Origin: an uncultured Candidatus Saccharibacteria bacterium
GTDB taxonomy: Bacteria; Patescibacteriota; Saccharimonadia; Saccharimonadales; Saccharimonadaceae
Direction of reading: 5' to 3'
Assembly: GCA_947428935.1 (NCBI GenBank)
Contig: CANENS010000012.1
Location: 1 to 40,764, forward strand
Length of the DNA: 40,764 nucleotides
The stretch's first letter is position 1; the number at the start of each line of letters is the position of its first letter. Shown here piece after piece: positions 244 through 29,272 of the stretch. Under the pieces are notes generated by a model. That model made no database searches, was not told the origin of the DNA, and worked only from the letters and a program-made list of their open reading frames with translations. The position numbers were made by a program, and so were the translations under genes.

Positions 244-615
244 TCAATTTATGCTTATTTTATATATTATATACTGTCTAGTTAGGCAGCGGAGGGGGAA
301 GGCGTAGTAATGTTCTTCTACACCATATGCTGACGTAAGATCTGTGGGATTAAAGTGCAATACATAAACATATTGTTTAGCAGATGTTTCTTTATGTGAA
401 GACCACCCGAAAGCATTTTGCCCCATTTCTACCAAAGCTCCGTTATTGATATAAACGCCCCCGCTGCGAACGAAATAAAGGGGCGCTTCGGCAATGTTAT
501 AGCTCTTCCCGTCCGTTCCAGTGCCAGTCACACTACCGCTATTAATTATGATGTCGGCCTTTTTGAGGACAAAACTGTAAAAATAGTTATAGTTAACAAA
601 AGAAAGCCCATTCAC
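244..615 (-). pseudogene. Hypervariable surface-protein C-terminal fragment (copy A)
   Basis: A 123-residue minus-strand frame with no signal peptide and no plausible complete N-terminus. Its middle carries a constant segment (GSVTGTGTDGKSYNIAEAP, then YFVRSG) that is almost identical in DNA to copy B near 7154-7232. After this comes the variable C-terminal domain ending FPLRCLTRQ. The pattern RSG, then xxGWS, then a YxY motif, then FPLRC matches the other four copies and resembles, from memory, the FISUMP-type repeats common in Saccharibacteria. Copy A is the most divergent, and its usual TAA stop has become TAT, so the frame runs on into flanking sequence. It is probably a remnant or silent cassette, not a complete gene. 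Confidence 0.55.
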
Positions 616-6961: not shown

Positions 6962-7360
6962 TTACTGTCTAGCTAGGCAGCGGAGGGAGAAGCCATGCCA
7001 GCGATGGTAGTAGTGGGACGGGTAGACGTCAGATGCATTGAAGGCGAGATAGTATGCATAATGAATATGAGAATTGGTCCGCGTAGACCATCCGAACCCG
7101 GCGATGCCGGTCTCATTAAAACGACCGCTATTGATATTAACGTCCCCGCTGCGAACGAAATAAAGGGGCGCTTCGGCGATATTATAGCTCTTCCCGTCCG
7201 TTCCAGTGCCAGTCACACTACCGCTATTAATTCCCGTAGCAATGCCATATGGAGCAAGCAGTGCATAGAACGACCCATTATCCGTGGTGTTGCTGGTAGG
7301 CAGTTGCCGAAGCGCCCCTTTAGTTTGTGGTAAAGAGTCGTATTTAGTTGATCGCATCAC
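6962..7360 (-). pseudogene. Hypervariable surface-protein gene, truncated, with own promoter (copy B)
   Basis: A 132-residue minus-strand frame. The N-terminal 50 residues (KYDSLPQTKGALRQLP, then SFYALLAPYG) join the same constant segment as copy A (GSVTGTGTDGKSYNIAEAP). Then comes the variable domain from YFVRSG to CLARQ and a TAA stop. Unlike the other copies it has a clear promoter and leader directly upstream (7358-7422). It lacks any signal peptide or transmembrane anchor, so an internal deletion of a longer surface protein is likely. Variable codons are mostly NNC/NNT. It might still be expressed as a short protein; without an export signal, surface display is doubtful. Confidence 0.5.
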
Positions 7361-7961: not shown

Positions 7962-8102
7962 TCGCCCAAGTGGAGGTACACCACTAATATTATATCACTG
8001 AAACCTTGGGCTAACAAGATAAGAGGGTATTTCTAGCACTTAACCTTTACGAGTGCCAAAATGTGTGCTATCATAACTCTGAGTAGTATTAAAGGAGGCA
8101 GT

Positions 8103-9068
8103 TTGACCGAAAAACCCAAGGTATTCTTAGATACCAATGTTATCAATAATATTTCCCCGACTGGTGGGTTGTTGGGCTGCTGCAAACAACTAGAGTGTCT
8201 TGACTCAAAAGTAGATTTTATTATCCCCAGTATAGTTGTCGAGGAACTAATCGAACATAAGAGGAAAGCCTTTGATAGAAAAAAGCAACAACTTCTTGAC
8301 AATGAGCTATTTGATAACCCCGAGGAACGAGCAAAAATTGAAACTAAAGATTTCTGTGAGGAATGTATTTTTAAAGATGAGAGTATTAAATATACTACCG
8401 AAGGAATCAGTAATCTAGAAAAACGTTTTCACGACATGTGCTCGCTCGCATTGCAAAACAAAGCTCCTTTTGACAACAAAACCGATAAGGGTTTTAAAGA
8501 TGCTATCATTGCTTTTACTATCGACGATTATCTAGAACGTAACCCAAAAATTAATCGGGTATTCCTAGTGAGCAAAGACGGAAGGCTTGGTGAATATTTT
8601 GAAGAGCGACAAGATGTTATTGTCATAAAGGAATTCAGTGAGCTAAACCAGTATCTAGATATATGCAATGACGCTTCTCAGTCTAGCCAAGCCAACGATG
8701 AATGTAGGGCAATTTGCCACGAGGACAAGCCCTCTCCGAAATTGTCGGAAGCGAGAAAACTGCTCACAGAATTACGCAATAGCGGTAATTTTGCCTCGAC
8801 ACATCAAACTATTGAAAAGATACAGCCTTATATTACACTGCTCACAGATGATGACTTCATAGATATTCTATTATCAGCTATTGAAAATGACCAAGTAATG
8901 TGGATTATTGATGACCCAGATGTAAAAGGATTTATTCAGCCAATTTTTGATAAATACAAAGATCGATTAGAGATTTCAAAATATAACGACTTCGTAAATA
9001 AATCTAGGTGGCAATACCCAATTAAACAAGTTTTAAGTGAAGCTAATTTAGACGATTTACCTTTTTAG
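8103..9068 (+). CDS. PIN-domain nuclease-like protein (DUF4935-like)
   Basis: About 321 residues from a TTG start at 8103, which sits 4 nt behind AAAGGAGG; the upstream ATG at 8061 has no such site. The N-terminal half is a PIN fold: VFLDTNVINN gives the first acidic residue (Asp10), then IIPSIVVEELIEH, then KTDKGFKDAIIAF, and VSKDGRLGEYF gives the last acidic strand. Such PIN proteins are metal-dependent RNases, often toxins or defence effectors. The C-terminal 130 residues are helical and unrecognised. No antitoxin is obvious next to it. It lies alone on its strand, facing the leftward operon, so it looks like cargo of the element. A defence or maintenance role is inference. Confidence 0.65.
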   Translation: MTEKPKVFLDTNVINNISPTGGLLGCCKQLECLDSKVDFIIPSIVVEELIEHKRKAFDRKKQQLLDNELFDNPEERAKIETKDFCEECIFKDESIKYTTEGISNLEKRFHDMCSLALQNKAPFDNKTDKGFKDAIIAFTIDDYLERNPKINRVFLVSKDGRLGEYFEERQDVIVIKEFSELNQYLDICNDASQSSQANDECRAICHEDKPSPKLSEARKLLTELRNSGNFASTHQTIEKIQPYITLLTDDDFIDILLSAIENDQVMWIIDDPDVKGFIQPIFDKYKDRLEISKYNDFVNKSRWQYPIKQVLSEANLDDLPF

Positions 9069-9085
9069 CCATGACAACCTGTACC

Positions 9086-9307
9086 TCATCTGCCGTAAGC
9101 CCTCATGAACCGATCTATAGAGCCATAGCGAATCTCTGCTATTCTCCGTAAATGTCCATATTCAAGAATAATCTTGCGGTAAGTAATCATATCTAAACCA
9201 GCAGATTCAGCTGCGAGTTTAGCTTCTGTGATCATATTATACTTGCCACTCCTGCGAACCAACTCGTAATGGTAGAAATTGAGCAATCCAGTAGTTTTCT
9301 CAACCAT
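9086..9307 (-). CDS. Small phage/plasmid-type protein, unknown
   Basis: 73 residues with ATG at 9307 preceded by AAGGGG at good spacing. It is mostly helical and basic (YHYELVRRSGKYNMITEAKL, then DMITYRKIIL). There is no signal or membrane segment. Similar short proteins with a V-R-R-S-G-x-Y/F-N-M pattern occur in phages and integrative elements, from memory, but their function is unknown to me. It is the last gene of the leftward operon, 125 bp after the DnaB-like gene. Confidence 0.45.
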   Translation of the reverse strand: MVEKTTGLLNFYHYELVRRSGKYNMITEAKLAAESAGLDMITYRKIILEYGHLRRIAEIRYGSIDRFMRAYGR

Positions 9308-9432
9308 TTAACCCCTTAACTGTACTAAATAATAAAATGATTATATAGACTTAGTTAAGATAATGCACGAGAGAAATTTACGTGAGCAAATAGTTCACGT
9401 AAAAATAGGCAGGTGTAGAAAAACATGAGTTA

Positions 9433-10035
9433 CTAATGCTTAAAATAATCTTCGTTCAGAAGAAGTCCAGCAGTAATAGTTTCGCCGAAAGAATTCTTAA
9501 GCACCTTAAGTTCAAGAAATGGTGATTCAAAATTTGAGCGATGGATATACATAAGGATATCAGCTTTATCTAAATTTCTAACGGTTTCTCTAAACTCTGC
9601 CAAAGCAGGACAAATAATCTCATCTGTATCTTCCGAGTGTCTAACAGATAGACAAGTTACTACCATTATGGGCATGTTAAGTTTGGAAGCAACCTTTTGC
9701 ATAGCCGATAAATCAACAGGTGTTTCAAAATTCACGATAATTAACTTGGCATTATAGGCTAATGCTTGGCTCTGTATAGTATCTGCCAAAATTGGGCTAT
9801 TATCAGCTTTTATTATTTTAAAAACCTTATTATTTCGGTAATACTTATCAGTAAAAAGAAGGGCAGAATCTGAGTAACCAAAATCAGAGGCAACATTGCG
9901 AGCAATATCTTCCACAAAAGTCATGCGTCCATTTCCGGGACGAGCACCGAGTAGAATCAAACTGCCCTTTCTTAAACCACCAATTTCTTTGTCGAAATCG
10001 GTAAACCCAGTTTTGATATAATCGTCTGCTTTCAT
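9433..10035 (-). CDS. DnaB-like RecA-fold protein with altered P-loop
   Basis: 200 residues. The start TGFTDFDKEIGGLRKGSLIL plus LGARPGNGRMTF matches the C-terminal RecA-like domain of DnaB replicative helicase (TGFxDLDxxxGGLxxGxLxxx-ARPxxGKT). The P-loop Lys-Thr pair is replaced by Arg37-Met38, so normal ATP hydrolysis is doubtful. The end also fits DnaB (LELKVLKNSFG, then ETITAGLLLNEDYF). The DnaB N-terminal domain is absent, and the length is about 80 residues short of a full helicase domain. It may be a loader, a regulator or an inhibitor of the host helicase, or a decaying gene. It belongs to the leftward operon of the element. Confidence 0.6.
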   Translation of the reverse strand: MKADDYIKTGFTDFDKEIGGLRKGSLILLGARPGNGRMTFVEDIARNVASDFGYSDSALLFTDKYYRNNKVFKIIKADNSPILADTIQSQALAYNAKLIIVNFETPVDLSAMQKVASKLNMPIMVVTCLSVRHSEDTDEIICPALAEFRETVRNLDKADILMYIHRSNFESPFLELKVLKNSFGETITAGLLLNEDYFKH

Positions 10036-10089
10036 TTGACTATTTCCGTTTACCTAATTATACGGTTGCCACCCTATCTAATCAACAGA

Positions 10090-10650
10090 TTAGAATTCGC
10101 TCTTGAAAAACCTTTGGTGCTTTTCTTTTGCTTTCTTAATCTGCCTTGTGAGTTCTGCTACGAATTCATTAGTGCGAACTTGAGCTTGTTCAGGAGTTTC
10201 ATTGCTTGGAAATACTTCCTCAAAATCAAAACCTGCGTGTTGATAATAAAAGTCGGGAAATTTTTCGCCTTTCGCCTCAAGCACGATAAAACCATAGCGA
10301 AGATGAGGAAAGACATTTTTGTGAGCTTTGGCTTTTTCGGTATAGGTAATAATGTCGTGGGTAGTTTGAGTTTTGATTTTACCTTCCAAAACTACGAGCG
10401 GTATTCTATCGCCATTTGCTAGCGGCTCGTAAATTAGAGCATCAGTTACGTAAGCCTTTTGACCTTTAGCATAATCTAAACCTTTGCCAGCTTCGTTAAT
10501 TTTGTCGCAAAAATTAGTGTAAGGTAAAACTGCTTGAGTAGTGATTTTGTAGCCTAGGTTTTCAATCTCGGGACGAATTAAGTCCACGAACTTTTTGATT
10601 TCGTATTGCTCTGTACCCTCTTGTTCTTCTACTTTGAGGTTAATTGCCAT
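10090..10650 (-). CDS. PD-(D/E)XK nuclease-like protein (restriction endonuclease-type)
   Basis: 186 residues. Asp70 in VTDALIYEP and Glu89-Gly-Lys91 in LVVLEGKIKT form the D...E-x-K active site of the PD-(D/E)XK fold, on two neighbouring strands. The rest (HDIITYTEKAKAHK, then YGFIVLEAKG) fits the core alpha-beta order of that fold. The start follows AAAGGAAA. It lies 20 bp downstream of the membrane-protein gene and 54 bp before the DnaB-like gene, so it is part of one operon. It could cut DNA in defence or in element processing. No methyltransferase partner is adjacent; the type IIG-like methylase at 30 kb is far away. Confidence 0.6.
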   Translation of the reverse strand: MAINLKVEEQEGTEQYEIKKFVDLIRPEIENLGYKITTQAVLPYTNFCDKINEAGKGLDYAKGQKAYVTDALIYEPLANGDRIPLVVLEGKIKTQTTHDIITYTEKAKAHKNVFPHLRYGFIVLEAKGEKFPDFYYQHAGFDFEEVFPSNETPEQAQVRTNEFVAELTRQIKKAKEKHQRFFKSEF

Positions 10651-10670
10651 ATTTTTCCTTTCTTTTAATG

Positions 10671-11228
10671 TTATTCTTTCGAGTAGTCGACTATATCGTG
10701 AGCATGACCTTTTGCCTTATCGGATTCTAGTCGTTCTATATTGCTTTCGTAGTATTTGTTAAAGGGGTTGACACAGATAGTTGTTTCGTTAAGGCTAGTA
10801 GACCTGAAGAATATGCCGTCATAATACTGACATTCGGCTCGGGTGTAATTAGCATAGTCATAATTTGGGTCTCGCGGCCACTCCTTATACTTGCCAAGTT
10901 CTTCCAGGTATTTCTGATATTCTTCATCGGTGCCATTGGGGTTTTGAGCTACACACTCCCAACGATGATATGATCCCTCCGATTCAGGTGCGTCAGAAAT
11001 ACGAACTACCTTAATTTCTACACCTTCTTTGAAATCGCTTTTGCACCCATCTAGCATGGTAGCTTCGGCAATTCCGTCAATAGCTGGTGTTGGAATGCTG
11101 TTGATAACTGGAACTTTGCCAACCAACCCACTAATGCCGGGAAAGGAATTAGCGATCGTAAGCCCAACATAGCCAACCACCCCGATACCTACTACCCAGC
11201 AGATGATTTTGATAATAACTGGTTTCAT
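10671..11228 (-). CDS. Membrane-anchored protein of the element, unknown
   Basis: 185 residues. Residues 5-25 are one hydrophobic helix (IIKIICWVVGIGVVGYVGL) after a short Lys-containing start, so it is probably inserted with the rest outside. The outer part is acidic and has four cysteines (DGCKSD, WECVA, AECQYY, TICVN) that could form two disulfides. I do not recognise the family. It is the first gene of the leftward operon and lies directly behind a structured leader with an intrinsic terminator (11250-11392), so its expression is probably attenuated. ATG follows AAAGGG. A role in contact, entry exclusion or host interaction is possible but unproven. Confidence 0.55.
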   Translation of the reverse strand: MKPVIIKIICWVVGIGVVGYVGLTIANSFPGISGLVGKVPVINSIPTPAIDGIAEATMLDGCKSDFKEGVEIKVVRISDAPESEGSYHRWECVAQNPNGTDEEYQKYLEELGKYKEWPRDPNYDYANYTRAECQYYDGIFFRSTSLNETTICVNPFNKYYESNIERLESDKAKGHAHDIVDYSKE

Positions 11229-11249
11229 AACACCCTTTCTGCCGCAACT

Positions 11250-11392
11250 AAAAAAGCGACCACATGTTTAGTCGCTAAACTTTGACAAACGGAGTTTTGA
11301 AACCCTATCTGCTACACATGGTCGCATTTCTGATTTCAAAACACCTATCAAAGGTGTAGTCCGAATATCAAAGTTTAGCTAACACCACTATA
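11250..11392 (-). ncRNA. Structured attenuator-like leader of the leftward operon
   Basis: Read on the minus strand, a -10 box TATAGT (11387-11392) is followed by a closed structure. P1 pairs GCTAAACTTTGA (from 11379) with TCAAAGTTTAGC (to 11274), 12 perfect bp. Inside it are hairpin ACACCT-TTGAT-AGGTGT and a 9-bp stem GTTTTGAAA/TTTCAAAAC. After P1 comes AGCGAC, a 10-nt loop, GTCGCT and six T, an intrinsic terminator (11250-11276). P1 and the terminator share AGC. A second segment GCGACCA (minus strand, 11325-11319) could pair with the terminator's TGGTCGC. These exclusive pairings suggest attenuation or a riboswitch-like control. The terminator ends about 20 nt before the membrane-protein ATG. 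Confidence 0.6.
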
Positions 11393-11561
11393 CCATAAAA
11401 ACCATAATTGTGAAAGACTATTTTAACTATTACGGGGAAGCCGTTAGAAAACCATGCGATATTTGCGACATACAAGCGGTTTAAACAAGCGATCAGGCTC
11501 AAACCGACCAACTATGTATGGTTACCCTAAACCCTGCGAAATTTTGCGAATTTAAAAGCCC

Positions 11562-11590
11562 TTGACGGCAGGGCGAAAGTGCGATAAGAT
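11562..11590 (+). promoter_or_regulatory. Promoter of the replication-ATPase transcript
   Basis: TTGACG (11562-11567) and TAAGAT (11585-11590) with 17-bp spacing. The first downstream gene starts more than 300 nt later, so the leader is long. Confidence 0.55.
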
Positions 11591-11921
11591 AAGAATGTCA
11601 GATTAAGAAATCTGAATCAAGATTTAGAACGTTATTTAATGACTGACAAACCAGTACGAAAGCGAGCAGGTTCAAATCCTTGTCTATTTAGACTAAATCG
11701 GTAAGCAAATTGTATTGTGCGATAATACAACCTAGTGCCACAGTCAAAGCCTATTCTATAGGGATGGTCTTTGTTTGGTTGGCACTAGGATTTCGTAATT
11801 TCTAGGCTTTGTCAAAAGAATAGAGGTCAAAATAATATCAGTTTTCCCATTAGATTATCTTTGGCTGTGGAGAGCTAACACATGAGACACTCTCCGTCCA
11901 AAAACGGAAAGCATATTTGTA
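11591..11921 (+). ncRNA. Long structured leader upstream of the replication ATPase
   Basis: This has several strong stems. TGTATT/AATACA is at 11711-11729. A nested hairpin at 11731-11789 is closed by CCTAGTGCCA/TGGCACTAGG (10 bp), with inner pairs CAAAG/CTTTG and CCTAT-TCT-ATAGG. GGAGAG/CTCTCC and TCCGT/ACGGA lie just before the start codon. The inner strand CAAAGCCTA can also pair with TAGGCTTTG about 60 nt downstream, so alternative folds exist. It may control copy number or expression of the replication gene, or be a separate RNA. There is no open frame of note. Confidence 0.5.
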
Positions 11922-13661
11922 GTGGCAAAACGTCAATACGAAGAAAAATCCCTCCAAACAAAAACTAATAAAAATCAAACTCCAACTACCGACTATCTCG
12001 TAAAAGAGTTAGTTCAGCAAAATGTTTTATTCCAAGACAAATACGATGAGCCTTGGTTCTCGCCGTATGACAATGGATCAGAGCTATATCGAATTAGGTC
12101 GAAAAAATTCAAGAGTTGGCTAGGGGCTTATGTGTACGATAAATACAATTTTGCCCTCAAGAATAACCAAATCAGAGACATTAGCGAAGCCCTTAGTGGT
12201 GTGGCCCTCTATTCAGGTGCTGGTGAGAAGAATCTAGAGGTTCGTTCTTGTTTGGTTGATAACGTACTTTGGTATGACCTCGGAGGTTCAGCTGTCCGAG
12301 TTGATAAGAATGGTTGGGGAATTATCGAGAAACCACCTATTCTCTTTAAACCATGCGACCACCAAGAAAAACAGGTTATCCCAAGCAAGAATGGAGATAT
12401 CCGAGCCTTAAGGCAGTTCATCAACATTAGCTCGGATGAAGACTGGGCATTATTCTTAGTCTTTGCCGTCTCTGCGTTTATTCCAAGTTTTCCGCAACCA
12501 GTTTTAGTTTTGACTGGTTCGCAGGGAGCTGGAAAAACCACCCCAATGAAAATGCTTAAAAAGTTGATTGACCCATCTCAGCTTCCGAGCAACAGTACTC
12601 CTAGTAACCAAGAGGAGATGTCGAGAGTTGCTGACAAGCATTTGTTATTGTTTTTCGATAACCTATCAAGTTTAACCCCCAAAGTTTCGGATATGCTTTG
12701 TAAGTTAGTTACTGGAGACGGTTTTTCTCGTCGCACCAAGTACACCGATGACGACGAAACTATTTTCGTTTCTAAGCGAGCCATTATGATGAATGGCATT
12801 AACTCCTTCATCGCAAGAGCAGATTTGCTCGATAGAACAATTATTTTGGAGTTGGAACGCATTCCTGATGAAAAGAGGCTGCCCGAAGACGAATTATGGC
12901 AAAGATTTGAAGAAGCACGACCAGTAATTCTCGGTGGAATCTTTGACGTATTATCTAATGCTATGTCTCTTTATGGGCATAACGTGCCTGCTAAGTTGCC
13001 TCGTATGGCTGACTTTGCTAAGTGGGGAGTTGCTATCAACTCTGCCATTAAGCAAGTTGATGAAAGTTGGGTAGTTGACTTCATTGAAGCCTACGAAAAG
13101 AACATTGGGCTTCAGAATGAGGAGGCGATTCAAGCTAATCCAACTGCGGCAGCCGCACGAATGTTAGCTCAAGAAAAAATTGTATGGGAGGGGAGTGCTA
13201 GCGAACTCTTACATGAGTTTGAGACATCTACCGATATTGAAATGACTTACCTCACCCGTCACACTCTGTGGCCAAAAGATGCCTCTGGACTTGGTCGATG
13301 GTTAGAGCGTGCGAAAACAAATTTGAAACAAGTTGGTATTTCGATTGACAATTCACGAAAAGGTCATATTCGCATTGTTGACGAAAACCGCAAAGACGAG
13401 CATGAGGCTTTTCAAGCATTACCCAAGACAGAACAGGTCAAAATCGAACAAGCTAAATATTATAAAACTTCATGCGATAACAGCGTGGAGAAACGAGCAG
13501 AAAGACAGCGAGCAGAGAAATGTTGGCGAGATTGGAACGCTCGACTTGAAAACTGCACACCCGAAGACAGAGAGAAGCTGAACGAAATTCACGACAAAAT
13601 GCTTCGGGGAGAAGACCTTACGTCTGACGAGGAGTTTACTTTGTCATGCGGTCTCTGTTAA
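11922..13661 (+). CDS. Replication ATPase/helicase of the element (D5/SF3-like)
   Basis: 579 residues from a GTG start at 11922. The centre is an AAA-like helicase core: Walker A TGSQGAGKTT (about 198-207), Walker B HLLLFFDNLSS (about 240), then a sensor-type strand KRAIMMNGI followed by DLLDRTIILELERI. This is the layout of phage and plasmid replication ATPases that follow a primase domain. The N-terminal 150 residues (SELYRIRSKKFKSWLGAYVY) resemble the usual D5-type N-terminal region. No primase catalytic motif is visible, so a partner primase is probably supplied by the host. It is the main replication gene of the accessory block and sits in one direction with the small gene and recombinase. 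Confidence 0.75.
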   Translation: MAKRQYEEKSLQTKTNKNQTPTTDYLVKELVQQNVLFQDKYDEPWFSPYDNGSELYRIRSKKFKSWLGAYVYDKYNFALKNNQIRDISEALSGVALYSGAGEKNLEVRSCLVDNVLWYDLGGSAVRVDKNGWGIIEKPPILFKPCDHQEKQVIPSKNGDIRALRQFINISSDEDWALFLVFAVSAFIPSFPQPVLVLTGSQGAGKTTPMKMLKKLIDPSQLPSNSTPSNQEEMSRVADKHLLLFFDNLSSLTPKVSDMLCKLVTGDGFSRRTKYTDDDETIFVSKRAIMMNGINSFIARADLLDRTIILELERIPDEKRLPEDELWQRFEEARPVILGGIFDVLSNAMSLYGHNVPAKLPRMADFAKWGVAINSAIKQVDESWVVDFIEAYEKNIGLQNEEAIQANPTAAAARMLAQEKIVWEGSASELLHEFETSTDIEMTYLTRHTLWPKDASGLGRWLERAKTNLKQVGISIDNSRKGHIRIVDENRKDEHEAFQALPKTEQVKIEQAKYYKTSCDNSVEKRAERQRAEKCWRDWNARLENCTPEDREKLNEIHDKMLRGEDLTSDEEFTLSCGLC

Positions 13662-13831
13662 ATCATCAAAATGCCCATGACGAGACAGTAAAGACAGTAA
13701 AAAAGTCAACAAATTTAATTACTGAAGAAATGGCAGATGATTATGCAGCTTTTCTGCTTGACCTCTGGCATTATGGGCAAATGGTTCATAAAATTAACAA
13801 AAAGGGTGAGGTATCTATGGACGAAGAATAA
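13646..13831 (+). CDS. Small acidic protein, unknown
   Basis: 61 residues, overlapping the end of the ATPase gene by 16 bp, which suggests translational coupling. The middle is helical (EEMADDYAAFLLDLWHYGQM) and the end is charged (KKGEVSMDEE). There is no signal or membrane segment. It lies 60 bp upstream of the recombinase and is probably cotranscribed with it. It could be a recombination directionality factor by position and size, but no HTH is visible. Confidence 0.55.
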   Translation: MRSLLNHQNAHDETVKTVKKSTNLITEEMADDYAAFLLDLWHYGQMVHKINKKGEVSMDEE

Positions 13832-13893
13832 TTTTTAAAAAGGGTGGGCAAAAACAACTTTTATTACTTAAACATTTTTGAAAAAGGAGCAAT

Positions 13894-15645
13894 ATGAAAA
13901 CAACCGAAGAATGGGCAATCGCTAACTGTCGTGTTTCTACGAAAGAGCAGGAAGTTAACGGTAATAGCCTAAATCGGCAAAACGAGGTCGTCCGTAAATA
14001 TGCCGAAAAGCATGGTTATCGTTTAGTTAGAACTTGGTCGGGAGCTCGTTCAAGCAAGCGAGGTAAAAATATTTCACGCAAAGACCTTCAAGAAATGCTT
14101 GATTATTGTAAGCAACACAAAAAGATTAAGCACCTCATTATTGACGAACCCGACCGTTTCATGAGGTCTCTCAAGGAAGGTATTTATTTCTCGGTACGTT
14201 TTGAACAACTGGGAGTTAGAGTAGAATATGCCTCGGACGAAAGCCTAAATGGTAATGACGCACTTTCTGAGCTACAACAATGCGTAAAATTCTTTACTGC
14301 AGAAGGAAGCAATGAAGAACGTATGCGTAAAGCAATTGCTGGTGGACAAAAAGCCTTACGGGAAGGTCGCTATCCATATCCAGCCAAATTAGGTTATATG
14401 CGAGGCACTACTCCCGGAGTTCACATTATCAACCCCGAATCAGGAGAGATTCTAAAAAGCCTACTAATCAAAATTGCTAGTGGTCTAATTGATGTCTCCG
14501 CAGCAATGACAGAATTCAATAATTCGCCTTATGTCAAGTCAGGTAAGCACAAACCCTACCGTAGCGATAATTGGAAAGTTGTAGTAACCGACCCATATTA
14601 TGCTGGTATCGTAGAAATCAAGGCTCAAATTAACGAGCGAAACGAAAATGGATTACACGAACCACTAATTAGCAAGCAACAACACGAGAAAATTGTAGAA
14701 ATTGTTAACGGTAGAAAAAGAAAACATGGTGGACCTCGCAAAAATGGTAATCCTGATTTCCCCTTAAACACTATCGCTTTTTGCGAAAAATGCTATGCCG
14801 AAGAAGTTGCGTTAGGTAGAGAGGGCATTCATAACCGAGCTAAATTTGTCGGTGCAAACTCAACAAATGGTAAAACCAACAAACTCTACTCTAAATATAA
14901 GTGCCGAAAATGTGGTCGTTTAATTAACAAAACCGAGCTACACGAGCAGGTGCAAGACGAATTATCTAACTTAGAAATGACAAACGAAGGCAGAATTAAG
15001 TTAACAAAAGCCTTGCGTAAGATTTGGAATTTAGAAGAAGATAATAAAGCTTCCGAAGTTATCAAACTAAAAACCCAAGCCAATAATATAAGAAAAGAGA
15101 AAGAACGTTTATTGGATAATATCGGCAATTTCTCAAATCAAACCGTCCTTGCCGAGATTGAACGCAAAGTCGAGGAACGAGTTGCCGAAATTAGCGATAT
15201 TGAGGCTAAAATCGAGAAAATCGAAACTAGCCGTAATGACGATCGTGAACGTTTTATGCGGTTTGCTCTAGAATTTGCCGATAATTTAGGGTGTCAGTTC
15301 TTCAGTCTCCAACCCAATCAAGTTAAAAAGTGTAAACTTTTGCTCTTTCCAAACGGTTTTATCGTGGACGCAAATAAAAAAGTTTACATCCCGAAAATCA
15401 GCCCATTTTACAGATATAGAACCAACAAAAAAGGCTCCGAAGAGACCGATTTTGCCAATATGGTACGCCCGACAGGATTTGAACCTACGACCTTTGGTTC
15501 CGGAAACCAACGCTCTATCCAGCTGAGCTACGGGCGCAAAACATCGCCGAAACGACATATATATTATAACATGTTTTGCGCGAAATGGGGCGCAAAACTG
15601 ACAGTCTATTTCAAACTAGAGATGTATGTTACAATGAAGGGAGTT
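13894..15645 (+). CDS. Large serine recombinase (integrase), no stop codon of its own
   Basis: The start follows AAAAAGGAGC. NCRVSTKEQ holds the nucleophile Ser15. The resolvase domain spans about 1-145 (DEPDRFMRS, then EGSNEERMRKAIAGG). The recombinase domain follows (GRYPYPAKLGYMR, then WKVVVTDPYYAGIV). Next comes a zinc ribbon of two CxxC pairs (FCEKC near 297 and KCRKC near 340) and a coiled coil (about 390-445). It catalyses site-specific integration and excision. The family sequence appears to end near residue 520. No stop follows: the frame continues through the antisense tRNA-Arg and joins murB in frame, so the whole open frame is 13894-16746. The coordinate given is an upper limit; the true C-terminus is uncertain. 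Confidence 0.85.
15461..15537 (-). tRNA. tRNA-Arg (CCG)
   Basis: 77 nt on the minus strand. Acceptor GCGCCCG pairs with CGGGCGT (one G-U), the discriminator is A, and CCA is encoded. The anticodon stem TGGTT/AACCA region holds the loop TTCCGGA with anticodon CCG. The T arm has GGTTCAAATCC. A minus-strand TATAAT at 15563-15568 is a likely -10 box. The 3' end touches the recombinase side, so this tRNA may be the integration site. Confidence 0.95.
15468..15477. other. Candidate right attachment core in tRNA-Arg
   Basis: CCCGACAGGA, at the junction of T stem and acceptor stem, matches 7537-7546. See that entry for the limits of this call. Confidence 0.25.
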
Positions 15646-19372: not shown

Positions 19373-20626
19373 TTATTCGCCCCTATCATACATAATATCG
19401 ATATCGACCGCACCGTTAATGCCGTCGATCCGTCCAGTGTCGCAAATCTGCCAAAGCGTATAGTCGCCCTCGTAAGTCACGCGGTCATAATATTGCGCCA
19501 CCCAAGTCTCATGTTCGGGTACGTCCCAAAATAGCTTCAAATAGTTGGTACTGCCGTAGAGCAGACTACGATAGCCGGCCTTTTGAACCGTATCGAGGAA
19601 AGTTTTTGCGCTCTTGTTTAATGTCCAAAAACTCATACCCGCTTCGTTAAAATTTGTCCAATTTTCCCAGTCGAAAGTTACGCCTAATTCAACTCGATAG
19701 CCTCGGATCTTCTCCAAAACCCATTTTGCTTGCTTTTTAGCTTCGTCAGCACTATTGGCGTAAGAGTAAAAATACACACCGACCGGTAAACCGACCACAT
19801 TCGCCTCTTCCACATTGCGTTCAAAATAACGATCGAGCTCGTATGCGCCGTCATACCCATCTTGATAACCCAAACGAATGATCGCAAACTCTGCTCCGGC
19901 TTGCTTAACCTTAGTCCAGTCCACTCCTCCCTGCCAAGCCGAGACATCAATCCCGATTTTGGTCGCATCAGTTTTATGCTGTTTAACGATCTCGGCGAAT
20001 TCTGTTCTCTCAACCTCGGCGCCATCGGCTGGTGCGGTCGCCGTATTCGAGTTTTGCGCAGGCGTAACTACATTCAGAGTGAAAGGCTTACGGCTTTCGT
20101 TGCCGCTTTCATCCACCGCCACGTACTCAACGTCGTAGCTCCCGGTTTTGCTCAGATCGTAATCTCCTTCCACGCTCCGCTTTGGGTGATCATCGATATC
20201 ATCGCCGCTCAGCATCAAGCTCCCTAAATCACCATCGTAATTCTCGTAAACCGTATAAGCCGAGCGACCGTGGATCTGCGGCGCAGTCACATCGACCACC
20301 TCAACTTTAAAATGTGCCTTACGATGCCTATTCTTTACGTTGATATATTCGAAGCTGGCCTCAGTCTCTCCTAATTCGTCAGTCTTGATCTCGAAGTCAT
20401 CGGACAAAGTCCCGTTCAAATTCTCCACGAAATCCGAAGCTTTCGCCGTGGTGCCAAAAGGAACCGTCAAGTCATTTTTGTAAGTAACCGCCTCCGCATC
20501 AATCCGCTTATTCTCGGCGATATCCCTCAAAACCCAAATGGCAGAAAACAAAAACAACCCGAGCGACACCACCATTGCGCAAATCACTAGTCGCCTTTTC
20601 CCCACCAAAAATGTTCTCGGATCCAT
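19373..20626 (-). CDS. Membrane-anchored GH25 muramidase with Ig-like (DUF5011-type) domain
   Basis: 417 residues. Residues 12-34 are one membrane helix after a basic start, so the rest lies outside. About 45-110 and 110-190 look like bacterial Ig-like/DUF5011 strands (VEVVDVTAPQIHG, then YTVYENYDGDLGSL, then GSYDVEYVAVDESGN). From about 218 comes a GH25 domain: GIDVSAWQGGVDW, FAIIRLGYQDG, VGVYFYSYA, FDWENW and DIDIMYD. GH25 lysozymes cut MurNAc-GlcNAc bonds; the Asp and Glu of FDWEN and the first Asp are the usual catalytic residues and all are present. For an epibiont this could remodel its own wall or attack the host's. The start has AGAGG 5 nt upstream. Confidence 0.85.
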   Translation of the reverse strand: MDPRTFLVGKRRLVICAMVVSLGLFLFSAIWVLRDIAENKRIDAEAVTYKNDLTVPFGTTAKASDFVENLNGTLSDDFEIKTDELGETEASFEYINVKNRHRKAHFKVEVVDVTAPQIHGRSAYTVYENYDGDLGSLMLSGDDIDDHPKRSVEGDYDLSKTGSYDVEYVAVDESGNESRKPFTLNVVTPAQNSNTATAPADGAEVERTEFAEIVKQHKTDATKIGIDVSAWQGGVDWTKVKQAGAEFAIIRLGYQDGYDGAYELDRYFERNVEEANVVGLPVGVYFYSYANSADEAKKQAKWVLEKIRGYRVELGVTFDWENWTNFNEAGMSFWTLNKSAKTFLDTVQKAGYRSLLYGSTNYLKLFWDVPEHETWVAQYYDRVTYEGDYTLWQICDTGRIDGINGAVDIDIMYDRGE

Positions 20627-20732
20627 GACACCTCTTTCTATCTTAATTATATCAAAATTCTCACAACATGCAAAATTTGGTAGCGTAATTCCTAAATTCG
20701 CGTCTATTTTATTTTTTGCGAAGTCATCGTCA

Positions 20733-20905
20733 GTTCGCAGCGGGGCCGTCTATATCGGTTACGGTCGTTTGAGAGTCTCTGGCATCGACGGTTACGGGTG
20801 GTCTACGCGGGCTAATTCTTCTGATGTTCGTTATGCATACGGCCTCGGCTTCAATGCGTCTGGTGTCGTCCCGTCCTACAACGGCAATCGCTGGTACGGC
20901 TTCCC
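20733..20905 (+). pseudogene. Hypervariable surface-protein cassette (copy C), 3' end fused to the tail motif
   Basis: Reads VRSG, then a variable stretch, IDGYGWSTRANSSDVRYAYG, then GVVPS and RWYGFPP. It starts abruptly at GTTCGCAGCGGG, where the other copies also share a boundary, and has no start codon of its own. After GGCTTCCCCCC the family sequence is replaced by the GCAGATCAAAAAG tail (20910-20940), so the usual LRCLARQ end is lost. A deletion between two C-runs, using the arrangement still present near copy A, explains this. It lies just upstream of the muramidase promoter on the other strand. Confidence 0.6.
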
Positions 20906-20909
20906 CCCC

Positions 20910-20940
20910 GCAGATCAAAAAGCAAAAAACGCAAAAGAAT
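20910..20940 (+). repeat. Cassette 3' tail motif (second copy)
   Basis: GCAGATCAAAAAGCAAAAAA and CGCAAAAGAAT; the partner is on the minus strand at 53-81. Confidence 0.5.
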
Positions 20941-20944
20941 AATA

Positions 20945-21060
20945 TTGACAAAAAGCATAAGCTGTGCTAATATAGAAGTTAAGCTGCTTGCGACGGCTAG
21001 ATCTGTAGTTGTATTAACGTTATCAAAAAGCTACTTCAATTGAAAATGTCGCGCCTGTAT
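20945..21060 (+). promoter_or_regulatory. Orphan promoter and leader of the cassette family
   Basis: TTGACA (20945-20950) and TAATAT (20968-20973), spacing 17. The following AAGCTGCT...CGGCTaGATCTGTAGT matches the leader of copy B (7358-7422), and the AGCTG/CGGCT stem is kept with a different 7-nt loop. Here no cassette gene follows; the next gene is the ABC-F ATPase with its own promoter. This is probably the 5' end of a deleted family member, still able to make a short RNA. Confidence 0.5.
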
Positions 21061-22747: not shown

Positions 22748-22772
22748 GAAGTCGTTTTTTTGAGTATTGTGA

Positions 22773-22910
22773 TATAATAAAAGTGTCTCATTTTGAATAA
22801 TTATTTGTATGCGTAAGTATCTCTTAACGCTTTTAAGCGGCATCGCATAAGTAATCGTTAAGAGATACAAATGATTATGAATGGAAATGAGACACCTTGC
22901 GGTGTCGCTT
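22773..22910 (+). ncRNA. Attenuator-like leader of the 22958 membrane-protein gene
   Basis: A TATAAT at 22773-22778 starts a transcript that can fold into a long hairpin. GTGTCTCATTT (22783-22793) pairs with AAATGAGACAC (22885-22895), then an AT-rich stem, then TATCTCTTAACG (22818-22829) with CGTTAAGAGATA (22856-22867). The 3' arm's GACAC is also the left arm of a classic terminator GACACC-TTGC-GGTGTC followed by GCTTTTTG (22891-22913). The two folds exclude each other, which is the logic of an attenuator. The sensed signal is unknown. Confidence 0.55.
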
Positions 22911-22957
22911 TTTGTAGCTGGCATCTGGCGCAAATTTTTAAATAAAAAGGCAGTTAA

Positions 22958-23341
22958 ATGGAAAATCAAGAAAATTTGAGCGCACAAAATGCTCCCGACA
23001 ATCAAAATCTTAAAAATACCCAGGAAGTGGCTATGGATAATAACGCTAAAAATACCGAGGAGGAGCGTAAAAAGGCGTTGTCGCGTATTAGTACTATTCA
23101 GACTGGAGTCATTTTTTCTGCTCTGGTCATTGTTACGATTGTGCTGCTCCTTGCGTTCGATCCTCGCCTTGGGGGAGTAATCGCGCTAGTGTTCGGGCCA
23201 CTGATTCTGCTTGCTTTTCCGGTCGCTTTGGCCTTTAGTTGGAAACTGTTCTCCGAACAACGCCGCTTTCGCAAGGAGTTTGGTAAGCTACCATGTAATA
23301 CTATTTATATCATTAGCGACATCTGTGCCGTCGTTTTTTAG
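22958..23341 (+). CDS. Small membrane protein, two helices, unknown
   Basis: 127 residues. The first 45 are acidic, polar and probably disordered (NAPDNQNLKNTQEVAMDNNA). Two membrane helices follow, about 50-70 (TGVIFSALVIVTIVLLLAF) and 75-97 (GGVIALVFGPLILLAFPVAL), then a basic segment. I do not recognise a family. It is a single gene behind an attenuator-like leader, and a perfect 24-bp palindrome (23379-23402) follows its stop. An in-frame ATG at 23033 could be an internal start. Confidence 0.5.
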   Translation: MENQENLSAQNAPDNQNLKNTQEVAMDNNAKNTEEERKKALSRISTIQTGVIFSALVIVTIVLLLAFDPRLGGVIALVFGPLILLAFPVALAFSWKLFSEQRRFRKEFGKLPCNTIYIISDICAVVF

Positions 23342-23378
23342 TTTTGACGCATTAACGTCTGTTCCGGAACAGAATCAA

Positions 23379-23402
23379 GAGCCCTCCTAATTAGGAGGGC
23401 TC
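23379..23402. terminator. Perfect 24-bp palindrome after the membrane-protein gene
   Basis: GAGCCCTCCTAA and its exact complement TTAGGAGGGCTC. There is no T-tract, so termination would be weak or factor-assisted; it could also be an operator for the next gene. Confidence 0.4.
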
Positions 23403-23455
23403 CGCTCACTTATTGGTAGCGAATTTGACTTTTCAGCTTGAAAAGAGGCGATTTT

Positions 23456-23994
23456 GTGTGTTTAATATGTGATCGAATTTCGATGATTAAACAGGGTGAA
23501 AACCCATATTTCGTGCGGGAGCTGGAAACGGGGTATGTAGTGTTGGGCGACCATCAGCATTTTTGTGGCTATACCCTGTTTCTCTATAAAACTCACGGCG
23601 AAACGGAGTTGTTCGACTTGCCGCTCCCTGTACGCCAAAATATATGGAAGAAATGAGCTTGGTGGCGGAGGCGGCTATGAAGGCTTTCGGCGCAGAGAAG
23701 ATGAATTATGAGTTACTTGGTAACGGCGCCGCGCATCTGCACTGGCATTTATTTTCTCGACGGACTGGCGATTTGGGTAAATACGGAAATAATAGCAACG
23801 GACCAGTCTGGTGGTATCCGTGGCAAGAAATGTGTGATGACATTAACCGGCCAAGTGGTGTGCAACTAGCCGCAATGAAAAATAAGCTGCGACTGGAACT
23901 GGGGACAAAATATTCCAAAAACATCGTACTAAGCCGTCCTCGGGGCGGCTTTTTCGATGAAATATTACAAATCGCATTTTACGTAAAAGATTAA
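23456..23994 (+). pseudogene. HIT-family nucleotide hydrolase/transferase, frameshifted
   Basis: The first part (GTG 23456 with AGAGG upstream) reads VCLICDRISMIKQGENPYFV, then ETGYVVLGDHQHFCGYTLF. It then stops at 23654. The second part, in the -1 frame from about 23636, reads YMEEMSLVAEAAMKAFGAEK, then GNGAAHLHWHLFSRR with the catalytic H-x-H-x-H triad. One missing A in the CAAAAT run near 23636 would restore a single protein of about 165-180 residues. HIT enzymes act on nucleoside phosphates and related substrates. It is either a recent pseudogene or a sequencing error. A strong hairpin with TTTTT (about 23933-23955) lies inside the apparent 3' end, suggesting the true stop is earlier and a second slip exists. 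Confidence 0.65.
23933..23955 (+). terminator. Terminator-like hairpin at the end of the HIT gene
   Basis: AAGCCGTCC, a 2-nt loop and GGGGCGGCTTTTT. It lies within the last 25 codons of the open frame, which is odd for an intact gene. Confidence 0.5.
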
Positions 23995-24166
23995 GCTTAC
24001 TTCGCCAACTAAGTACAACACATAAACATTCTTAGGGAATTGAGTATTTCCCCACATAAAGTGCGCGTATTACTCCTTCTGGCTTGGTATAGCTATCGGA
24101 TAATGTTGCCTTTGTGTATATTTTAGGATAAATTCTAGCTTTTTCGACAAAAAAGCAGAAAAAGTA

Positions 24167-24195
24167 TTGACTTTTTACGTCATGTGTGCTACAAT
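24167..24195 (+). promoter_or_regulatory. Strong promoter of the three-way-junction RNA
   Basis: TTGACT (24167-24172) and TACAAT (24190-24195), spacing exactly 17. The predicted start is near 24202. From 24000 to 24166 I see nothing else. Confidence 0.6.
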
Positions 24196-24197
24196 GG

Positions 24198-24270
24198 AAT
24201 CATAAGCTTGATGAAGATGCAAATCTCCATCAAGGAGTGAGTAAAACCACTCCCGCTAAGGCTTATGGTT
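24198..24270 (+). ncRNA. Compact three-way-junction RNA, class unknown
   Basis: P1 pairs AATCATAAGC (24198-24207) with GCTTATGGTT (24261-24270), 10 bp with G-U. P2 follows with no gap: TTGATG, an A-C mismatch, AGAT-GCAA-ATCT, then CATCAA, capped by a GNRA tetraloop. P3 abuts P2: GGAGTG, loop AGTAAAAC, CACTCC (24234-24253). The strand CGCTAAG joins P3 to P1. All helices are perfect apart from the noted mismatch and G-U pairs. This looks like a selected fold such as a riboswitch aptamer or a stable small RNA. I could not match it to a class I know. It starts right at a strong promoter and lies about 315 nt upstream of the next good ribosome-binding site. Confidence 0.55.
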
Positions 24271-24274
24271 GTAC

Positions 24275-24348
24275 GGTTATATGAATATAACCCCTAATTC
24301 CTAGAATTAGGGGTTATATGAATATAACCCCTAATTCCTAGAATTAGG
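24275..24348 (+). repeat. Two perfect tandem copies of a 37-bp palindromic unit
   Basis: The unit is GGTTATATGAATATAACC followed by CCTAATTCCTAGAATTAGG. Each half is a hairpin (GGTTATAT/ATATAACC and CCTAATTC/GAATTAGG). The copies are identical, so the duplication is recent or maintained. It lies directly behind the three-way-junction RNA and could end that RNA or act as an expression platform. Confidence 0.65.
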
Positions 24349-24370
24349 CTACCACCTTAGAGGCTTAAGT

Positions 24371-24739
24371 ACATTATATTAGCAAATTCCAGGATTTCGT
24401 CTGACGTTTTCTGGAGTACGAAACAGCTGATTTCCGATACTCTGCAGTTTGGAATGAGCATGAATACGAGATTGGTGCTTATTCTGAACTGCGGAGACGT
24501 CCGCGGGTGGTTGCACAGGCATTCCGCTATGCAGCAAATTTGACGCCGACGGGCGAACGGGTGAAATACCCAGAGAGGAGTCAGGATGATGTACTCAAGA
24601 AAATCGAAATTAGATCGCAGAAACTCAATCATGGTAGCAGTGAAAAAGGAGTTGAAGGCGCACAATGCCTTCGTTGCTCCAGAACTGCTCCACCAGCTGG
24701 CCGAGTCGCTCGACACGGCGCAGTATTACCGGATTGAGG
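24371..24739 (+). pseudogene. Coding-like stretch without start, one in-frame TGA
   Basis: One frame reads HYISKFQDFV, a TGA near 24400, then RFLEYETADFRYSAVWNEHE, YEIGAYSELRRRPRVVAQAF and YAANLTPTGERVKYPERSQD before losing sense and ending at 24739. Composition and codon use are protein-like for about 70 codons. There is no ATG at the beginning. It overlaps the 24586 gene in another frame. It may be the N-terminal part of an older, longer gene whose frame was shifted near 24600. Readthrough of TGA is unlikely because Saccharibacteria use the standard code. Confidence 0.35.
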
Positions 24740-25128
24740 TAATTCGCGACGCCGATGGGGCTGCTCAGCGGTTGCGCCTTAAGGATCAGTGTTTCGAACA
24801 CTCCTGGGCAGGTAGTTACGGCGAGGTAGAAACCGGCACGAAGATTTTCGGTCAGATTGTGTGCGGAAAGGACTACTCGTATGAGTTTTCTTGCAACGGT
24901 AATTCCGATGGTCCGGATACTGAGGTTGTGGAGGCGGAATTTGATATCAATCGCCCATTCTGCATGCTAATCGAGTCTCGCGACTGGCGCAATATGGAAA
25001 ATGATGGCTGTAACCATGATTACACATGGCTTACGCTCGTGATTTATTCGCCAGAGTCGGTTATTGACGAAGACGAATATGCGGCCCAGAAGGCGGCGGA
25101 ACTTGACGAGCTGTGTCAGCTCCGTTAA
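24586..25128 (+). CDS. Soluble protein, unknown
   Basis: 180 residues from ATG 24586, placed 5 nt behind GAGAGGAG; ATG 24631 is an alternative that fits the folded part better. After about 20 basic residues the protein is acidic and mixed alpha/beta (ELKAHNAFVAPELLHQLAES, then YYRIEVIRDADGAAQRLRLK, then YTWLTLVIYSPESVIDEDEY). There is no signal or membrane segment. I do not recognise a family. It lies downstream of the three-way-junction RNA and the 37-bp repeats, which may control it, and is closed by a strong bidirectional terminator. Confidence 0.55.
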   Translation: MMYSRKSKLDRRNSIMVAVKKELKAHNAFVAPELLHQLAESLDTAQYYRIEVIRDADGAAQRLRLKDQCFEHSWAGSYGEVETGTKIFGQIVCGKDYSYEFSCNGNSDGPDTEVVEAEFDINRPFCMLIESRDWRNMENDGCNHDYTWLTLVIYSPESVIDEDEYAAQKAAELDELCQLR

Positions 25129-25155
25129 TTTTCCTCTTCCGGAATTTGCAAACTC

Positions 25156-25185
25156 AAAAGGCGGTCATTCGGGACCGCCTTTTTC
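25156..25185. terminator. Bidirectional intrinsic terminator
   Basis: AGGCGGTC (25159-25166) pairs with GACCGCCT (25173-25180), flanked by AAAA and TTTTT. It serves the 24586 gene on the plus strand and the convergent YhgE-like gene on the minus strand. Confidence 0.8.
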
Positions 25186-25200
25186 TCATGTCTATCAATT

Positions 25201-29044: not shown

Positions 29045-29272
29045 TTACTGTCTAGCTAGGCAGCGGAGGGGGAAGCCGTCCCAGCGATGGAAGTCGTCGT
29101 TGGACGGGTAGACGCCAGACGCACTGAAGGCGAGGATGTATGCATAACGAAGATCAGAAGAGCTAGCCCGGGACGACCATCTGTAACCGTTGAGGCCAGA
29201 GCTCCACAAACGACCGCTATTGATAGCAACGAGCCCGCTGCGAATTTTTTGGTATATCAGAATCATTTCCAA
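29045..29272 (-). pseudogene. Hypervariable surface-protein cassette (copy D)
   Basis: Minus-strand frame from IRSG through NGYRWSSRASSSDLRYAYIL and SGVYPS to RWDGFPLRCLARQ and TAA. The homology begins at CGCAGCGGG near 29244; upstream residues belong to unrelated flank, so there is no real N-terminus. The variable codons against copies C and E are GCC/CTC/TTC, TAT/GCT/AAT, GAC/AAC/ATC, AAT/AGT/TAT and similar, nearly all ending in C or T. It sits between the MMPL promoter and the divergent TetR gene. Confidence 0.6.

Follow-up and report, generated by a model that had tools for sequence, protein, structure and literature searches.

Our results indicate that the structured RNA at positions 24198-24270 of the window (the whole stretch of DNA analyzed, 40,764 nt, from contig CANENS010000012.1 of an uncultured Candidatus Saccharibacteria bacterium) forms the 5' domain of a leader, 384 nt long, on the mRNA of an orphan 180-aa ORF. 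It is very likely the 5'-terminal domain of the leader of a single-gene accessory unit in a gut saccharibacterium; the unit consists of a promoter, the leader, an ORF (24586-25128) and a terminator, and which represents an uncatalogued family of leaders that precede unrelated genes. The initial annotation had described 24198-24270 as a complete element, a compact three-way-junction RNA of the kind found in small-ligand riboswitches. The element is indeed folded, but its 3' end was misplaced, as structure continues through the region 24198-24600 (403 nt, reaching the ORF start; folding z -10.6). Because more structure, a Shine-Dalgarno (SD) sequence and an ORF follow without a terminator, we regard the feature as the beginning of an extended mRNA leader; no intrinsic terminator with a T run was found on the plus strand between 24270 and 24586. 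The features of the unit are as follows.

24167-24195, plus strand: promoter, with -35 TTGACT, a 17-nt spacer containing TG (extended -10) and -10 TACAAT (10 of 12 consensus positions).
24202, plus strand: probable transcription start, an A preceded by a pyrimidine, placed by its constant spacing from the -10 box in family members.
24198-24207/24261-24270, plus strand: P1, closing helix of the initial annotation (10 bp in the local fold).
24203-24209, plus strand: 5' strand of helix X, UAAGCUU, from complementarity and folding from +1.
24210-24231, plus strand: stem-loop P2 with a GCAA loop (24219-24222); the stem, but not the loop, is present in three further copies.
24234-24253, plus strand: stem-loop P3 (stem 24234-24239/24248-24253) with an 8-nt loop; the stem is present with altered sequence in three further copies.
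24256-24261, plus strand: 5' strand of helix Y, CUAAGG, pairing with 24355-24360.
24261-24267, plus strand: local competitor strand GCUUAUG, with which the 5' end pairs in the fold of the initial annotation and in short nascent RNA.
24275-24348, plus strand: double-palindrome unit, GGTTATATGAATATAACC plus CCTAATTCCTAGAATTAGG, in two perfect 37-nt copies inside Y; a single copy in relatives.
24355-24360, plus strand: 3' strand of helix Y, CCUUAG, pairing with 24256-24261.
24361-24367, plus strand: 3' strand of helix X (AAGCUUA-like), from folding and copy comparison, followed by the conserved linker AGNACATTAA at 24368-24377.
24378-24585, plus strand: second leader domain, with a long hairpin at 24440-24496; no sequence relative among the other leaders.
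24575-24580, plus strand: SD sequence GAGGAG.
24586-25128, plus strand: orphan ORF of 180 aa with ATG at 24586, from the ORF list and family searches.
25156-25183, no strand assigned: terminator-like GC-rich inverted repeat with a T run, downstream of the ORF, by which the unit probably ends.

The strong promoter that the initial annotation had seen at the start of the element was confirmed, and it is of the type that serves as the common strong promoter of the genus. Its -10 box (24190-24195) is separated by six bases from the A of ATAAGC in all copies, and the Y(-1)A(+1) pair at 24201/24202 is invariant across family copies, with C or T at -1; a pyrimidine followed by A is the usual initiator context. 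Based on the promoter position and this invariant dinucleotide at a constant distance from the -10 box, transcription most likely starts at A24202, in which case positions 24198-24201 and four of the ten P1 pairs would lie outside the transcript. The wider pattern searches described below demanded this fixed start spacing; the first copies were recovered by DNA similarity alone.

The helices, GCAA loop and 8-nt loop of the initial annotation are all found in the sequence, and 24198-24270 folds at -27.5 kcal/mol, compared with a mean of -12.5 kcal/mol for shuffled sequences (z -5.37; 0 of 200 shuffles as good). The 10-bp P1 exists in the DNA, but the four pairs upstream of the likely +1 are probably untranscribed, and in copies from other loci between 1/4 and 4/4 of the upstream pairs (24198-24201) are present, with 1/4 in G013C8 and G013C18. 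In predicted folding from +1, the 5' sequence AUAAGCUU prefers the distal strand 24361-24367. With +1 at 24202, the distal fold is better than the local one by 3.4 kcal/mol; with 24198 taken as the start, the local fold wins by 1.6 kcal/mol. For the growing transcript, the predicted probability of local pairing was 0.98 at 24270, 0.93 at 24345 and approximately 0 at 24366. Thus, P1 holds as a closing helix in short nascent RNA, but the distal partner is favored once it is included, and in these models the three-way junction would lose its dominance as the nascent RNA lengthens. The J3/1 strand of that junction is taken up by helix Y. An additional 10-bp helix between 24369-24378 and the region of the start codon, seen in the fold of the window copy, was dropped because the other copies lack it.

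Approximately 20 leaders begin with ATAAGCTT at the same position relative to the promoter and possess the same 5'-terminal closing helix. A DNA search of relatives revealed two more loci in this genome (C11 and C9) and four in G013 that have the same promoter and a ATAAGCTTGA-like start; at each of them a leader of 250-470 nt is followed by an SD sequence and an ORF, the ORFs being mostly unrelated. In total, 3 loci here and 4 in G013 have the start ATAA[AG]CTT at the fixed distance from the -10 box, and it also occurs in other species. Six to eight of the 8 closing pairs of helix X stand in 20 of 20 listed copies, with compensatory versions in two of them (AUAAACUU/AAGUUUAU and AUAAGGUU/AACCUUGU), and free folding from +1 yields helix X just upstream of the linker AGNACATTAA in nearly all copies. 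Helix Y stands in nine copies only. All nine of these also keep the local strand GCUUA, including G013C5, in which the inner sequence is otherwise different, and this retention supports either a folding path that covers the 5' end or a regulated switch.

Pattern searches covered 147 genomes of the genus and 84,980 species genomes, and the convincing further copies were all from Ca. Saccharibacteria, many of them from animal gut or rumen samples. The remaining exact matches among the species genomes had the appearance of chance promoters. Allowing one mismatch gave matches in 41 genomes, compared with one match for the reversed control, and most of these were ordinary promoters at which the terminal helix is absent. 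When one mismatch was allowed in the linker pattern AGCTTANRNACATTAA, the search was too loose to be informative, since control matches were also frequent. A DNA-level search of phage and plasmid records found no match, and five exact pattern matches in viral contigs were apparently due to chance. A covariance model, an approach proposed in the initial annotation and applied here to the X/Y domain, recovered the known copies but otherwise gave weak matches only. No earlier description of this family was found in the open-access literature on Saccharibacteria and structured RNAs. Altogether, the leader family is uncatalogued and modular.

Several related sequences were observed in the course of these searches. 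A contig binned as Mogibacterium (L131:1-80) is identical over its first ~55 nt to the saccharibacterial leader in L130 and then continues with unrelated sequence, which points to either chimeric assembly or transfer of a leader. In G156 and G105 (L061, L048), similar sequence is preceded by a different 5'-terminal hairpin, also located at +1 (AUAAGGUUAA/UUAACCUUAU in L061), which may be a further leader type. The leaders L073, L083 and L084 precede small homologous proteins; the one tested, that of L073, has a match to PADLOC 'Unk_01', which is in some cases fused to CARF.

The genes that follow the homologous leaders, which the initial annotation had proposed to check, are unrelated and have no pathway in common. 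They encode a 166-aa orphan, MYG1-family proteins, 451-aa and 124-aa orphans and small unknown proteins, and in gut Saccharibacteria related leaders precede over twelve genes that are poorly known and unrelated to one another. The 180-aa ORF of the window has no Pfam, NCBIfam, PHROGs or PADLOC match; a weak relative in G067:C7 carries a frameshift and is not preceded by such a leader. In a whole-leader comparison, the leaders of C11 and G013C9 had 66% similarity over 267 nt and those of G024C20 and G121C3 (L066a) 67% over 257 nt, and in both pairs the proteins are unrelated. Conversely, the C11 and G024C20 proteins are 57% identical and their leaders have no significant match, and L069 and L082 have the protein and the distal leader in common but not the 5' domain. 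Judging from these comparisons, leaders and ORFs are reassorted.

A second-domain type other than that of the window is common to four copies (C9, G024C20, G013C5 and G121C3) and contains 62 pairs, with 93.9% of cells paired and 17 pairs changed on both sides. This compares with 7.1 two-sided changes expected in shuffles (0 of 500 as high) and 1-5 in slid structures, a control that favors the four-copy structure because it was predicted on the same alignment. The compensatory changes show that selection acts on the RNA itself. Folding z scores of the leaders ranged from -1.6 to -11.0 (median about -4.7), with the window copy at -11.0, and those of eight control transcripts with the same promoter type from 2.0 to -4.3 (median near -1.4).

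Our leading interpretation, which we hold tentatively and put a little below an even chance, is that the leader stabilizes the mRNA from its 5' terminus and that its end folds in two steps. The common denominator of the family is a stem starting at the first or second transcribed base, paired in 20 copies according to prediction and complementarity from the inferred +1. The first transcribed bases, AUAAGCUU, would be locked in this helix from +1, which would hinder 5'-end-dependent decay (RNase J, pyrophosphohydrolase) and lengthen the life of the mRNA. When ~70 nt have been made, the 5' end may pair locally with 24261-24267, giving the junction of the initial annotation, and may later exchange to the distal strand 24361-24367 together with helix Y, so that it would be covered throughout synthesis. 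RNase J is encoded in this genome (G000:C25:3967-5640; 432.8 bits, cut-off 400). In Bacillus mRNAs, 5' hairpins confer stability on long regions downstream of them, and in E. coli mRNAs they interfere with RppH (PMC3997798). Stabilization is the simplest explanation in view of the stem at the transcript start, the presence of RNase J and these precedents. Several points weigh against it: a short 5' hairpin would be enough, so that the remaining 180-640 nt of structured leader are not accounted for; AUAAGCUU is conserved beyond what a generic helix needs, suggesting a recognized sequence; the local fold would be favored if transcription began at 24198; helix Y is confined to nine copies and P2/P3 to four; and, against the folding path, the GCUUA kept in nine copies could instead belong to a regulated switch.

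The strongest alternative, which we consider rather unlikely, is that a trans-acting factor (RNA-binding protein, nuclease or sRNA) recognizes the 5' end or linker and thereby co-regulates the accessory genes, with a switch formed by the two alternative partners available to the 5' end. Both the 5'-end sequence and the linker are conserved in copies with unrelated ORFs, and both partners are kept in the nine Y-type copies, including G013C5 with its unrelated inner loop. However, neither a terminator nor a consistently hidden SD sequence is coupled to such a switch. The predicted probability of the SD being unpaired varied from 0.08 to 0.99 across units, and a simple attenuator is disfavored because there is no plus-strand intrinsic terminator and no uniform burial of the SD. 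Slightly less probable is the broader proposal that exchangeable, sequence-conserved leaders form a genus-level control module for accessory genes of gut Saccharibacteria, in which a recognized 5' end would toggle between local and distal partners and thereby co-regulate many unrelated, shuffled genes.

We find it improbable that the whole unit is a mobile or exchangeable gene cassette, with the leader being mainly a by-product or serving as a substrate for recombination. In G024 (L172) the ABC-F and YhgE-like flanking genes directly adjoin each other, the whole of 22748-25200 being absent, and in G013 (L171) a short, apparently tRNA-bearing spacer occupies the same spot; therefore, the leader unit sits in a variable spot. 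Such single-gene units in variable spots, the reassortment of leader and ORF, the palindromes and the 37-nt duplication all speak for a cassette. Nevertheless, there is no recombinase inside the unit, no terminal repeats surround it and the genome lacks a reverse transcriptase, and the compensatory changes reflect selection on the RNA.

The small-ligand riboswitch proposed in the initial annotation, with the three-way junction as its aptamer, is very doubtful. The 5' fold is compact, stable and junction-rich, and P2 and P3 are kept in C11, G013C8 and G013C9 with compensatory changes (4 copies in all of ~20), P2 varying from UUGAUGAAG/CUUCAUCAA to UUGAUAAGG/CCUUAUUAA and P3 from GGAGUG/CACUCC to AGGAAC/GUUCCU and GGAGC/GCUCC. 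Hence the changes in these three homologues preserve the stems, but in most family members P2, P3 and their loops are missing or different, and the GCAA (GNRA) loop is confined to the window copy. Moreover, P1 lies partly upstream of the likely +1 and is supplanted in the predicted folds by the longer-range helix, J3/1 goes into helix Y, no Rfam match or expression platform was seen, and the downstream genes (orphans, the MYG1 family and small unknowns) have no common pathway. Least credible is an independent small RNA ending before the ORF. The leader's own promoter and its terminator-like palindromes would fit this reading, but no plus-strand intrinsic terminator with a T run lies between 24270 and 24586, and an SD sequence and ORF follow in every unit examined.

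Other parts of the window contain additional features. Partial copies of one coding cassette (EAPLYFVRSG..GFGWS..AFNASDVYPS..HGFSLRCLA) are located at 244-615 (minus strand), 6962-7360 (minus strand), about 20540-20950 and 29087-29260; two tested copies had no NCBIfam match and one of them also no Pfam match, and the genome is without a reverse transcriptase. The region 8061-15540 looks like an element integrated at the tRNA gene. Its ORFs encode a PIN-domain protein, an ATPase/primase-like product and a serine recombinase; the recombinase frame continues through tRNA-Arg (15461-15537) into MurB-like sequence. At 23438-23994, a frameshift apparently divides a HIT-like gene, recognized by eye, into two ORFs that overlap, and neither half has a Pfam match.

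To our knowledge, very little is known about gene regulation in episymbiotic Saccharibacteria. A leader common to unrelated accessory genes would provide a sequence handle on a gene set that is otherwise invisible and a testable RNA-stability or regulatory mechanism, and the family might supply ready-made expression parts for Saccharibacteria.

Finally, we compared the leaders with known classes. At the gathering cut-off, Rfam 15 identified only tRNAs in the window and in seven related loci, and a relaxed search of 601 bases gave only sub-threshold matches; the initial annotation was correct in recognizing a structured saccharibacterial RNA at a strong promoter that it could assign to no class. 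The best sub-threshold bacterial matches, RT-11 and psRNA2 (E 0.002-0.008), scored far under their gathering thresholds (25.7 of 143.5 and 20.6 of 65), with much of the score on palindromes. A retron or reverse-transcriptase-associated RNA was rejected, as genome G000 has no match to reverse transcriptase PF00078. Like the three-way-junction aptamers of purine, TPP, THF and c-di-GMP-I riboswitches, the local fold has three helices around a 5' junction and one GNRA loop; unlike them, the window leader has no Rfam class, conserved loops or junction, recognized expression platform or common gene function. The closer likeness is to the 5'-terminal stabilizing leaders of E. coli ompA and papA and B. 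subtilis aprE, in which a stem at or near the 5' end also precedes an ordinary SD sequence and ORF, and a 5'-end-dependent nuclease is present here as it is there. In contrast to those leaders, the saccharibacterial ones, for which stabilization is predicted, are much longer, are common to unrelated genes at many loci, are conserved in sequence from +1 and possess an extra, local partner for the 5' end.
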